A stretch of 64,000 nucleotides of DNA from Natronoarchaeum philippinense (lineage in GTDB: Archaea; Halobacteriota; Halobacteria; Halobacteriales; Natronoarchaeaceae), in NCBI RefSeq assembly GCF_900215575.1, contig NZ_OBEJ01000001.1, positions 682,001-746,000 on the forward strand. The letters run 5' to 3'. Each line of letters starts with the position of its first letter. The stretch's first letter is position 1. Below the pieces are notes generated by a model. The model saw only the letters and a list, made by a program, of their open reading frames with translations, was not told where the DNA came from and did not search any database. A program made the position numbers and the translations under genes. Below, one piece after another: positions 58,184 to 61,689 of this stretch.

Positions 58184-60418
58184 TCAGTCGTCCCTGCGAG
58201 CGAGCAGTTCCTCGACGGCGGCGTCGAGATCGGCGCGGATCGGCTCCAACTCTTCGATCGTCGTGCTGTTGTACGCGCGCTTGCTCACGTCGGTGTGCTC
58301 GGGAACGATCTCGTGAGCGCGGCGCGACCCCTCGGCGAGCCGATCGGCGAGATCGTCGGGCACGTCCTCGATGGCGGGCAGGTACAGCCGCGAGACGACC
58401 GACTTCGAGAGGCTGGATTTGCCCTCCGAGACGATGTCGTCGAGCGAGCGCTGGTAGATCGCGGAGTTGAGCAGGGCACACAGCACGTGGGCCTCGCGCT
58501 CGTCGTCGGTGCCGACGAACATGCAGTGGTCGCCCGGAACGACCGGTTTCTCGCCGAGTACCTCGTCCTCGACGGTCGAGACGACGGCGAAGTGTGGCTT
58601 GTAGCCCAGCCGGCACCAGACGACCTTGTACTCGGCCCAGGTGTACTCGCCGAGGCCGAACACGCTGTAGAAGGGGCCGCGGTCGAGCCACGACGAAGAC
58701 CGATCTTCGAGGCGGTCGCGTCGGGCATCGAGATAGTCGTACGTTCGCGGGCACTCGCGTTCGAGGCGGTCGGCGTTGTCCTCGCCTGCTTGATCCTGTG
58801 GAACGAGCCGACGGTCGTGGCCGAACAGGCCGTACTTGACGACGTGGCGGGACTTGAGGTACGGGAAGACGCGATCGGGTTCGATCTCCGGGAGCGTCTC
58901 GCGGTCGATCTCGAACACCTCGCGCGCGTCGTCCTTGACGCCGTGACGGATCTCGTGGGCGCAGTCGCCGAGCGCCCGGCGGTCGGCGTCGCCCCGGAGC
59001 CACGACGACGCGGGATCGTCGGCGTCGACGGGGACGAGTGCAGCCGCCTCCTGACCGAGCGTCTCGTCGATGGCGGCACGCGTCGAAAAGTCCGGGACGG
59101 CGTCGTCTCGTGACCACGCCGTCGCCGGGACTGGCGTGCGCGGGTCGTCGCCGGCCGAGAGCGCGTAGATCGCCGCGCCGGCGCGGACGCCGTTGCCAAA
59201 GGGCCGGAGATCGGTGAAGTCGTGGACGTGGCGAACGCTGAGGGGCTGGTCGTCGAGGCGCTGAGCGCGAAGCCGTCGCCCGGCCGGCCCCTTGGCGATG
59301 GTGCGCTTGAGCACGAACGCGGCGTCGCCGTCGGCGGCGAGATACCGGTCGGCACAGGTCAGTACGAAGGGAACCGAGATGTCGTCGTTGGCGTGGCCCA
59401 ACAGCGCAGTGGCGCCCTCGCCGGGCGCCAGATCGAGTCGCTCGGCCGGCCCCTCGCGCCACGCCGTCTGAACCGCCTCGGGCAGGTCGCTCCACGTGAT
59501 CCACGGCGGGTTCCCGACGAGGTGATCGACGGTCGGCTCGAACCGCTCGCCGCGATAGCGCACTTCGTCGTCGCGCGTGAGTCCCAGCGCGTCGGTCAGA
59601 AACACCGGAGCGGAAACCGTGTCGACAGCCGGAGCAGCCAGTAGCGGCGCCAGCGCGACGACGTACGACAGCGTCGCGCTCCGGACGGCCACCGGGTTGA
59701 GGTCGATGCCGAACACGCTCTCGGTGATCCGATCGAGCCGTTCGCCCGCAGTCAGCCCGGCGTCGGCCGTCGCGTCGAGCACGCGCTCGATCAGCACCGA
59801 GAGAAACGCGCCCGAGCCACAGCCGGGGTCGAGGTACGTATCGACGGCGACGGCGTCGTCGAGCGTCTCGACGGCCAGCGCCGCGACGCCGCGGGGCGTG
59901 TAGTACTCGCCGAGCGCGAGGCGAACGGACCGGGAGACGACCGCCTCGTAGAGCCGACGCAGCGCGTCGGGCCCGAGCGCGTTCGAGAAGGCTTCCGGTG
60001 TGGCGCCGATCGCCGCGGCGAGGTCGGCGTCGACGAGTTCCCGGAGGTCGTCATCTGCAACCGCGTCGTGCACGGCCGCGAGGTCGGCGTCGAGCGCGCC
60101 CGAGTACGCCCCCGGAGCGCGATCTCGCACGCGCACGTCGAACGCGCGCTCGACGGCGACGAACAGCCGTTCGAGCAGGAAGTCGTAGTACAGCCAGTCG
60201 TAGACGAGCGCCTCGGTGGACCGATCGTCGGGCAGAGCGTCGACGGCGTCGCCGTGGCTCTGCCGGACAAAGGCCAGCCAGTCGCCGACGGCGTCCTCGA
60301 CGATCGACGCCTCGGCGCCGCGAGCACCGGCGACGTAGCGTTCGTAGGCGTCGCTATCCCGGCCGAGACGGTCGGCCAGTGTCGCGTCGGCATCGAGCGT
60401 GCTGTCGGATCCGGGCAT
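58184..60418 (-). CDS. N6-adenine DNA methylase, Eco57I/TaqI-like, apparently solitary
   Basis: A 744-residue adenine methyltransferase. GEYYTPRGVAALAVE (about residues 180-194) and motif I DPGCGSGAFL (197-206) bind SAM; the catalytic motif IV is NPPW (303-306). A TaqI-type specificity region is suggested by RHVVKYGLFGHDRRL, EYTWAEYKVVWCRLGYKPH, and GDHCMFVGTD followed by ALLNSAIYQRSLDDIVS. The first 150 residues are helical and acidic without an obvious PD-ExK nuclease core, so it may only methylate. No restriction, BREX or DISARM partner is seen nearby. The ATG at 60418 is the first conserved-looking start; an upstream extension overlaps the divergent small gene. Confidence 0.88.
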   Translation of the reverse strand: MPGSDSTLDADATLADRLGRDSDAYERYVAGARGAEASIVEDAVGDWLAFVRQSHGDAVDALPDDRSTEALVYDWLYYDFLLERLFVAVERAFDVRVRDRAPGAYSGALDADLAAVHDAVADDDLRELVDADLAAAIGATPEAFSNALGPDALRRLYEAVVSRSVRLALGEYYTPRGVAALAVETLDDAVAVDTYLDPGCGSGAFLSVLIERVLDATADAGLTAGERLDRITESVFGIDLNPVAVRSATLSYVVALAPLLAAPAVDTVSAPVFLTDALGLTRDDEVRYRGERFEPTVDHLVGNPPWITWSDLPEAVQTAWREGPAERLDLAPGEGATALLGHANDDISVPFVLTCADRYLAADGDAAFVLKRTIAKGPAGRRLRAQRLDDQPLSVRHVHDFTDLRPFGNGVRAGAAIYALSAGDDPRTPVPATAWSRDDAVPDFSTRAAIDETLGQEAAALVPVDADDPASSWLRGDADRRALGDCAHEIRHGVKDDAREVFEIDRETLPEIEPDRVFPYLKSRHVVKYGLFGHDRRLVPQDQAGEDNADRLERECPRTYDYLDARRDRLEDRSSSWLDRGPFYSVFGLGEYTWAEYKVVWCRLGYKPHFAVVSTVEDEVLGEKPVVPGDHCMFVGTDDEREAHVLCALLNSAIYQRSLDDIVSEGKSSLSKSVVSRLYLPAIEDVPDDLADRLAEGSRRAHEIVPEHTDVSKRAYNSTTIEELEPIRADLDAAVEELLARRDD

Positions 60419-60542: not shown

Positions 60543-60689
60543 ATGCGATCCGAAGAGGAAGTCCGCGAGCAGTACGAGTACCTCCGCGAGCAACTGGACG
60601 ACGAGGAGATGCGCCACGAAGGGGTCAAGGAATTGTTTAGCCATTACAAGCGCGCTCTGGGGTGGGTACTCGAAGAAGAGCACATGTGA
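60543..60689 (+). CDS. 48-residue acidic protein divergent from the methylase
   Basis: A short ORF, MRSEEEVREQYEYLREQLDDEE then MRHEGVKELFSHYKRALGWVLEEEHM, strongly helical and charged, with no known domain. Its codon use and acidity are like its neighbours and it starts just after a TTGATTGCACT region, 124 bases from the methylase start on the opposite strand. It may be a small regulatory or partner protein. The helix EQYEYLREQLDDEEMRHEG is amphipathic. Confidence 0.68.
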   Translation: MRSEEEVREQYEYLREQLDDEEMRHEGVKELFSHYKRALGWVLEEEHM

Positions 60690-60740
60690 GCTGGACAACA
60701 TTTCGGGATTGAATGCGGATCACACGACTCGGCCGATAGA

Positions 60741-60916
60741 TTTAAGACCAGAGAGTGAAATGCTTCAGGTGACGCTTCGCTTGGAGGGCCGAAGCGTCAG
60801 CGGGGACCAATTCAGGGCGGCAAGCGATCGCGCGTTTTTCGCGCGCGATTCGCTTTCCTGTTTCAATACACCGAATAGTGATGACGCCACTGGGCCCGCT
60901 ATCGACGAGTAGCGGG
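60741..60916 (+). ncRNA. Candidate small RNA with three hairpins
   Basis: The 329-base gap between the 48-residue protein and glutaredoxin has no credible ORF. A TATA-like GATTTAAG (60739-60746) is followed by a hairpin TGACGCTTCG(60770)/CGAAGCGTCA(60790), perfect over 10 bp. Then ATCGCGCG (60827)/CGCGCGAT (60842) with a T5-containing loop and outer GCG/CGC pairs across a bulged T, and CCCGCTA (60895)/TAGCGGG (60910), perfect over 7 bp. The stems are well above what random DNA should give. A transcript from about 60768 could end in the T-rich 60836-60865 region or after the third hairpin. No tRNA or known RNA family matches by eye. Confidence 0.4.
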
Positions 60917-61018
60917 TATGTATCGGTGGTACAATCGTGGTTACGGACCATCGTGTGAGCCGGTGGCTATCGTTCTCGAACCGCAACCGTTCTTCTATCC
61001 CAGTACGAACACGGGCCT

Positions 61019-61273
61019 ATGTCAGATCCGGTTCCGATCACGGTGTACACGCGCGAGAACTGCCACCTCTGTGACGACGCCGTCGACACCCTGACGCGGA
61101 TCGCGGAGTCGGAGGGGGTCGACATCGAAATCGAAGAGGTCGATGTTGACGATGATCCGGAACTCCGGGAGAAGTACGGCGAGCGAGTGCCCTACGTGCT
61201 TGTCGATGGGTCGCCGAAATTCAAGTACCGCGTCGATCCGGCCAAGGCCCGAAGCGTGCTCTCCCGGCAGTGA
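61019..61273 (+). CDS. Glutaredoxin-like thiol-disulfide protein
   Basis: An 84-residue glutaredoxin/thioredoxin-fold protein. The active site is ENCHLCDDAVDTL (C-H-L-C, residues 15-18) after the strand PITVYTRENC. Later VDVDDDPELREKYGERVPYVLVDG carries the cis-proline (R-V-P-Y) and the tail FKYRVDPAKARSVLSRQ ends the helix. Glutaredoxin-like proteins of this type (DUF836-like) reduce disulfides; the reductant in haloarchaea is often gamma-glutamylcysteine based. The ATG at 61019 gives MSDPVPITVYT. Confidence 0.86.
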   Translation: MSDPVPITVYTRENCHLCDDAVDTLTRIAESEGVDIEIEEVDVDDDPELREKYGERVPYVLVDGSPKFKYRVDPAKARSVLSRQ

Positions 61274-61365: not shown

Positions 61366-61689
61366 ATGCACGACCTGACCGGCTTCAAGCGCGACCTGCT
61401 GTACGTCATCGCGGGACTGGAGGAACCACACGGGCTAGCGATCAAGTCCGAACTCGAGGAGTACTACGAGTCGGAGGTGCATCCGGGGCGACTCTATCCG
61501 AACCTCGACGACCTCGTCGACGACGGACTGGTCGCCAAGGGGTCACATGATCGACGAACGAACGCCTACGAACTCACCGATCGGGGCTACGAGAGACTAT
61601 CCGCGCGGCGGTCGTGGGAGGGCCAGTACTTCGAGGACGGCGAGCCAGCAGGCGACGCCACGAGCGCCACTGCCCACGCGGGCAACTGA
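61366..61689 (+). CDS. PadR-family transcriptional regulator
   Basis: A 107-residue winged-helix repressor of the PadR family. MHDLTGFKRDLLYVIAGLEEPHGLAIKSELE is the first helical part, and HPGRLYPNLDDLVDDGLVAKGSHDRRTNAYELTDRG is the recognition helix and wing (the R/Y-P-x-L-x-x-L-x-x-x-G pattern). The tail is a short helix and an unstructured EPAGDATSATAHAGN. Start ATG 61366 is preceded by GAGGCAAACACG; a longer frame upstream from 61315 is not conserved-looking. It is 92 bases downstream of the glutaredoxin gene and may or may not share its transcript. The regulated genes are unknown. Confidence 0.9.
   Translation: MHDLTGFKRDLLYVIAGLEEPHGLAIKSELEEYYESEVHPGRLYPNLDDLVDDGLVAKGSHDRRTNAYELTDRGYERLSARRSWEGQYFEDGEPAGDATSATAHAGN

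Follow-up and report, generated by a model that had tools for sequence, protein, structure and literature searches.

The small RNAs of haloarchaea have been portrayed as poorly conserved, a survey of 27 Haloferax sRNA genes describing, in the part of it that is available, their conservation as extremely low (PMC3956466). The same survey reports two intergenic sRNAs, H225.2R and hts10, in 19 and 18 other haloarchaeal genomes, respectively, with growth phenotypes following their deletion; rancRNA_s194 of H. volcanii, an abundant intergenic RNA of 97 nt (PMC6104027), is reported in no other haloarchaeal genome in the accessible portion of that survey (PMC3956466). sRNA132 of H. volcanii is a small intergenic RNA with two stems and a single-stranded, pyrimidine-rich linker, described in the available part of its source as restricted to Haloferax (PMC6560208). 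HVO_2908s and H3.2 are reported as intergenic sRNAs common to the vesicles of H. volcanii and Halobacterium salinarum and conserved between the two genera (PMC10927574). Lastly, sRNA_61 is described, in the accessible portion of its source, as an abundant, ribosome-occupied RNA of 111 nt without detectable product (PMC12482152).

The window, i.e., the whole stretch of 64,000 nucleotides of the Natronoarchaeum philippinense chromosome that was analysed, contains a 329-base gap (60690-61018) in which a TATA box, a 10-bp hairpin, a G-rich linker, a second hairpin and a T-rich tail follow one another. Judging from the sequence comparisons, the sequence between the two flanking genes most probably contains a small RNA gene of about 95 bases, nearly unchanged in almost every salt-loving archaeon examined. 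The gap, the TATA-like element and the stems lie at the places given in the original prediction. The candidate is intergenic, as are H225.2R and hts10, and should likewise occur in other haloarchaeal genomes. It shares with sRNA132 its small size, its intergenic position and the arrangement of two stems plus a single-stranded linker, and differs from it in being class-wide and in having a linker rich in G, and it is comparable to rancRNA_s194 in size and place.

All features of the candidate gene lie on the forward strand. The predicted TATA box (TTTAAG, 60741-60746) was recognised by word enrichment upstream of the copies and by its spacing to GACGC: TTTAAG and TTAAGT, among the most enriched words, occur upstream of 98/190 and 113/190 copies, respectively, against 3/950 and 7/950 in the background. 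A TATA-like word begins 29 nt before GACGC in 141/194 copies and 30 nt before it in 41/194 (182/194 in total), and is lacking in seven of the 194. On the basis of archaeal promoter spacing, transcription is predicted to start at the GTG just 5' of the first stem, at 60769 or within about two bases of it. The predicted RNA of about 95-98 nt would span 60769-60866, its 5' end being placed by the TATA spacing and its 3' end by the second hairpin, the T-rich tail and the edge of conservation at 60858-60866. The copies behind these and later counts comprise 215 occurrences, 195 or 196 of them distinct, whose core was required to carry no more than two substitutions, so that diverged copies are under-counted; three short weak matches (L010, L068 and L069) lie outside the set.

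Hairpin 1 (60770-60799) pairs TGACGCTTCG with CGAAGCGTCA over 10 bp with no mismatches (arms 60770-60779 and 60790-60799) around the loop CTTGGAGGGC, which presents the near-invariant element TGGAGGGC (60782-60789); GGAGG is found in the loop of 195/195 copies, a set chosen by core sequence. The G-rich linker AGCGGGGACCAATTCAGGGC occupies 60799-60818 and is divided by alignments A2, A3 and A5 into a near-invariant part, AGCGGGGAC, and a remainder that varies by copy type. Hairpin 2 (60819-60858), terminator-like and very variable in sequence, has in the local fold an inner stem of 8 bp (60827-60834/60842-60849) plus an outer part, and runs into the T-rich tail TTTCCTGTTTC (60854-60864), a likely termination region, with TTT present within 10 nt past the stem in 125/196 copies. 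A stem of at least 8 bp was found here in 174/196 copies against 64/196 shuffled sequences and 78/194 flank segments of the copies themselves, and one of at least 12 bp in 127 copies against 12 shuffled and 14 flank sequences, the shuffles keeping base composition alone and not dinucleotides. There are 141 distinct 5' arms among the 196 copies, and the 3' half of 67 representatives folds with a median of -29.2 kcal/mol and a median z of -5.1 against shuffles of the same kind. Hairpin 2 is, by this measure, an element whose structure is maintained with little sequence conservation. When 60741-60916 is folded as RNA, its energy of -70.5 kcal/mol compares with -58.8 +/- 3.4 for shuffles (z -3.4; 1/200 shuffles as good), the opposite strand giving a weaker signal (z -2.6; 2/200).

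The gap was matched by BLAST in 9/9 genomes of the family, including the window's own; the congeneric genome matches over 60728-60864, and in the other seven the match begins at 60764-60769 and stops at 60858-60866. A DNA search with the core (60766-60868; E 0.01) found it in 387/391 genomes of the class and 83/86 genera, the genomes without a match being G029, G220, G287 and G382. The original prediction had proposed a covariance search of homologous gaps upstream of glutaredoxin, and the search, extended to whole genomes beyond such gaps, found the pairing conserved. R1, a covariance model of the 5' half, was run on 392 genomes of the phylum. In the window's order it matched strongly in 80/81 genomes (best E at or below 2e-15); the 311 other genomes yielded ten weak matches, the highest at 21.1 bits and none above 22, and the four genomes lacking a DNA match gave nothing above 20.2 bits. 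Given the 387/391 class genomes and the specificity of R1, the RNA is a trait of haloarchaea, found in almost every genome sampled from the class, and vertical inheritance of the main copy is inferred. An exact 26-base search, in which the core is invariant by construction, returned at least 119 matches (loci L101-L219); among the matches listed, the titles of the named records identify them as haloarchaea, apart from 2/119 given only as 'uncultured archaeon'.

Rfam 15 gave no match at gathering score within the window, and a permissive search of 60600-61100 returned two unrelated matches, far below gathering. On six homologous stretches, only the Caulobacter sRNA CrfA appeared, at 23.6 and 21.7 bits against a gathering score of 38. 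The higher of these (L258, 182-287; E 0.18) is probably due to chance, since the adjacent stretch on the opposite strand scores 21.7 bits. These comparisons describe a small RNA gene family that is real, conserved to an unusual degree and absent from Rfam 15.

Pairing in hairpin 1 was conserved in 97.0% of the alignment cells of 43 distinct sequences, against at most 48.0% in controls with slid pairing, with the outermost two pairs lost in 8/43 and 5/43 sequences. Changes on both sides of a pair were confined to two pairs and three cells, all from two related diverged copies; the control slid by -2 also had two pairs with two cells changed on both sides, with only 24.5% of its cells paired. 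The comparison points to firm conservation of pairing and thin covariation. The diverged stems read CTCCG/CGGAG (Halorubrum lacusprofundi plasmid pHLAC01, G070) and CTCTG/CAGAG (G073) in place of the usual CTTCG/CGAAG, and in both copies the loop and AGCGGGGACC are unchanged, a hint that diverged copies separate the parts conserved in structure from those conserved in sequence. The loop element is invariant in 37/37 rows of alignment A2 and in 44/44 rows of A5, to which diverged copies were added. A2 holds 37/40 representatives outside the exact-pattern matches, each core match having at most two substitutions; L048, L058 and L065 were excluded by hand for irregular 3' halves, L058 lacking one C of GGGGACC. 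In the 37 rows of A2, 26 consecutive columns from loop to linker, UGGAGGGCCGAAGCGUCAGCGGGGAC, are invariant. A possible pseudoknot pairing between the loop UGG and the linker CCA has 91.5% of its cells paired and no compensatory changes.

The number of copies, counted by hand from R1 matches, differs between lineages. Outside one family (f5), exactly one match was found in 49/51 genomes of the order, G043 having two and G029 none; within f5, 26/30 genomes carry at least two matches above 40 bits, the maximum being four. This family includes Hrr. lacusprofundi (Haloferacaceae according to NCBI) and also a Haloferax, as the surroundings of the G046 copy are nearly identical to those of the Haloferax denitrificans locus L178. 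In Haloferax, the main copy lies near genes that are probably fen1 and folD, judging from the proteins encoded beside it. The extra copies retain the 5' module and have a changed linker and terminator. A few copies are borne on plasmids, and in two plasmid records no annotated feature lies beneath the match. Bacterial multi-copy sRNAs such as OmrA and OmrB have a shared 5' part and separate terminators. The present family resembles them in its constant 5' module, variable 3' half and several paralogues, and differs in being archaeal, in its much stronger conservation and in having no known chaperone or target.

Six diverged copies adjoin the gene of a 325-aa plasmid protein, H325 (PHROG 35116; genes at 1834-2811 of L272, 1804-2781 of L273 and 2261-3238 of L177), which has relatives in 68 plasmid records, and none in the viral contigs or phage records searched. 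A TRAM-domain gene is also present in four of these six loci, and a PadR gene in some of the six. H325 was rejected as a constant partner, the RNA being found in 0/10 sampled other plasmid loci of the H325 family. Carriage of the RNA by viruses was likewise sought: three patterns had no exact match in viral contigs, and blastn found none in phages. In two plasmids (L313 and L314), a perfect 11-bp inverted repeat, ATTAACCAACA...TGTTGGTTAAT, lies about 55-105 bases upstream of position 2501, ahead of the H325 gene, and is perhaps another structured element.

The module is found in several genomic settings, plasmids included, and its recurrence across them makes it independent of any one neighbour. 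Because copies sit in different settings, and because neighbours that are constant only by half cannot explain an invariant module, an action in trans is suggested. With middling confidence, we favour a free-standing small RNA gene of haloarchaea, about 95-98 nt long, whose product would act in trans through G-rich elements that pair with RNA. The constant 5' module, i.e., the UGGAGGG loop and the linker part, would be the working part of an RNA acting in trans, its exposed G-rich elements binding mRNA, ribosome or protein; with two such elements exposed, pairing to C-rich RNA offers the simplest explanation. Both single-stranded elements could pair with C-rich stretches of mRNAs, or with CCUCC at the 16S rRNA tail, and such pairing would alter translation or stability; as in bacterial multi-copy sRNA families, copies that share the module and differ in linker would form one family whose targets differ in part. 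GGAGG is the complement of CCUCC, the 16S tail in this genome, a pairing of 5 bp only that was noticed post hoc. Complementarity to the 16S, 23S and spacer sequences was at the shuffled level, the best run being 14 bp with G-U pairs (16S-23S spacer) against 11-19 in shuffles. The SRP RNA, RNase P RNA and 30 of the 45 tRNAs found gave no convincing duplex, the best z of -3.7 (linker with one tRNA) arising among about 100 comparisons with shuffles that kept base composition alone and not dinucleotides.

The main rival to RNA pairing is a protein partner, the two being inseparable from sequence alone. The RNA would again be free-standing, with the invariant module serving as a protein site in an RNP scaffold or in an RNA that captures and silences a protein, a possibility that we rate as real but rather doubtful. 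The models for protein capture and silencing by RNA are 6S and CsrB RNA. At 26 nt, the near-invariant stretch exceeds the ordinary length of an mRNA seed and would fit a protein site as well; the retention of loop and linker in two copies with a changed stem points the same way, as do the lack of an RNA partner among the rRNAs, spacer, SRP RNA, RNase P RNA and 30 tRNAs searched and the presence of the RNA in nearly all sampled haloarchaea. Against a protein site, the available part of the source reports CsrA in a single archaeon and not in H. volcanii (PMC6104027). The copies near TRAM-domain genes are also few (four loci), and such genes occur near H325 in plasmid loci without the RNA as well.

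The usual order of genes on one strand is that of a 48-aa acidic protein, the RNA and a PadR regulator. Among 195 distinct copies, the acidic protein is a same-strand neighbour in 117, PadR in 121 and both in 98, copies near the end of a sampled locus scoring as lacking them. In the window, the acidic protein (60543-60689, forward strand) ends in EEHM and had no Pfam, PHROG or NCBIfam match. The regulator (61366-61689, forward strand) matches PF03551 (E 9.6e-16) and hsRosR chains (E 1.5e-22). RosR is reported as an oxidative-stress regulator in Halobacterium, and since H. salinarum is reported to have four RosR paralogues (PMC3443676), orthology is not claimed; in H. volcanii, RosR showed no differential expression under oxidative stress according to the accessible part of the source (PMC5892119). 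A glutaredoxin of the local type was found within 1.5 kb downstream in 3/195 distinct copies (some loci end sooner), and the glutaredoxin neighbourhood is a local feature. Neither the stress link nor the methylase link offered as a guess in the original prediction is supported. The DNA methylase on the other side is no constant neighbour of the RNA, its cluster having four members. The reverse strand of the window encodes, at 58184-60418, a protein resembling N6 adenine methylases (PF02384); its likeness to MAD2, from a methylation-associated defence system, is weak (44.3 bits, the cut-off being 720).

It is unlikely that the element acts in cis as a leader, by way of a riboswitch or attenuation, for the PadR or glutaredoxin gene that lies downstream. 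Such a leader would agree with the 121/195 copies followed by PadR on the same strand and with the terminator-like hairpin that closes the element. In the remaining 74/195 copies, however, no same-strand PadR was detected within 2.5 kb (with some loci ending earlier), the gene after several of the second copies is on the opposite strand, and in the window itself glutaredoxin intervenes before PadR.

A leaderless microprotein gene beginning at GTG 60769 (VTLRLEGRSVSGDQFRAASDR...) is a very improbable alternative. A frame does open there in the window, and ATG, GTG or TTG stands at the expected transcription start in 171/194 copies; 23/194 have no such codon. The loop variants CTT (102 copies), TCT (37) and ATT (1) keep one frame, whereas CTTT (50), TCTT (2), ATCT (1) and TTCTT (1), one or two bases longer, shift it in 54/194 copies in all, one further copy falling outside the stem pattern of this coding test. 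The frame-breaking loop lengths, together with open reading frames that scatter from 15 to 100 or more aa from the expected start, make a peptide unlikely, and the core is without variation at synonymous sites. The statement of the original prediction that the gap has no credible ORF was borne out in this respect.

A guide RNA of the H/ACA or C/D type, directing the modification of rRNA or tRNA, would be a familiar product, as such guides are reported from haloarchaea (PMC2584109), and is nevertheless hardly credible on the features examined: hairpin 1 is unbroken and has no pocket, RTGATGA occurs in one, CTGA in 24 and both in none of the 195 copies, ACA is present in 58/195 copies in a 35-base window over and after the end of hairpin 2, and no convincing rRNA complementarity was found. 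Chance hairpins in an untranscribed gap, conceivable in GC-rich haloarchaeal DNA where 8-bp stems are common in the flanks, have next to no probability and are already refuted for hairpins 1 and 2 by class-wide conservation and maintained pairing, holding for hairpin 3.

The third hairpin of the original prediction (60895-60916, forward strand) is present in this sequence and lies outside the conserved core and the matching DNA, which stops at 60858-60866 in all eight family relatives. A perfect downstream stem of at least 7 bp occurs in 10/195 copies against 8/195 sequences shuffled with base composition alone kept, and on this evidence hairpin 3 does not appear to be part of the RNA. Of the three stems once proposed, hairpins 1 and 2 are set apart from chance by their class-wide conservation. 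The proposal of a small RNA is strongly supported by the promoter, the structure, near-universal occurrence and the lack of a stable frame, although as a unit of two hairpins, from 60769 to about 60866, rather than three. Further downstream, the words AGCGAC and GAGCGA, 80-140 bases past GGAGGG, occur in 51 and 50/190 copies, respectively, some 5-6 fold enriched, as if from a short hairpin or DNA element after the terminator. A conserved element after hairpin 2 was nonetheless rejected, these words being present in only about a quarter of copies.

The RNA has perhaps been seen before as an anonymous Haloferax transcript. By comparison of descriptions only, it may equal H225.2R or hts10, with H3.2, HVO_2908s and sRNA_61 as further candidates; it is probably not rancRNA_s194, given that the latter is reported in no other haloarchaeal genome. 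No description of the sequence or family was recognised in searches of the open literature, and none of the matches listed there for short letter strings was archaeal by title.

A near-invariant, class-wide RNA core is the opposite of the low-conservation picture drawn in the available part of the Haloferax survey (PMC3956466). The covariance model and the list of loci are a gain for annotation resources. More tentatively, the near-invariant module might belong to a housekeeping-grade RNA of the Halobacteria, class-born, working in an RNP or docking to the ribosome, that founded a multi-copy family, some members of which are plasmid-borne; this suggestion is possible rather than probable and, if true, would mean a functional class of archaeal RNA that is new, rather than an ordinary antisense sRNA. 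A core kept nearly letter for letter across the class suggests a core function, which would be testable in the genetic system of Haloferax.
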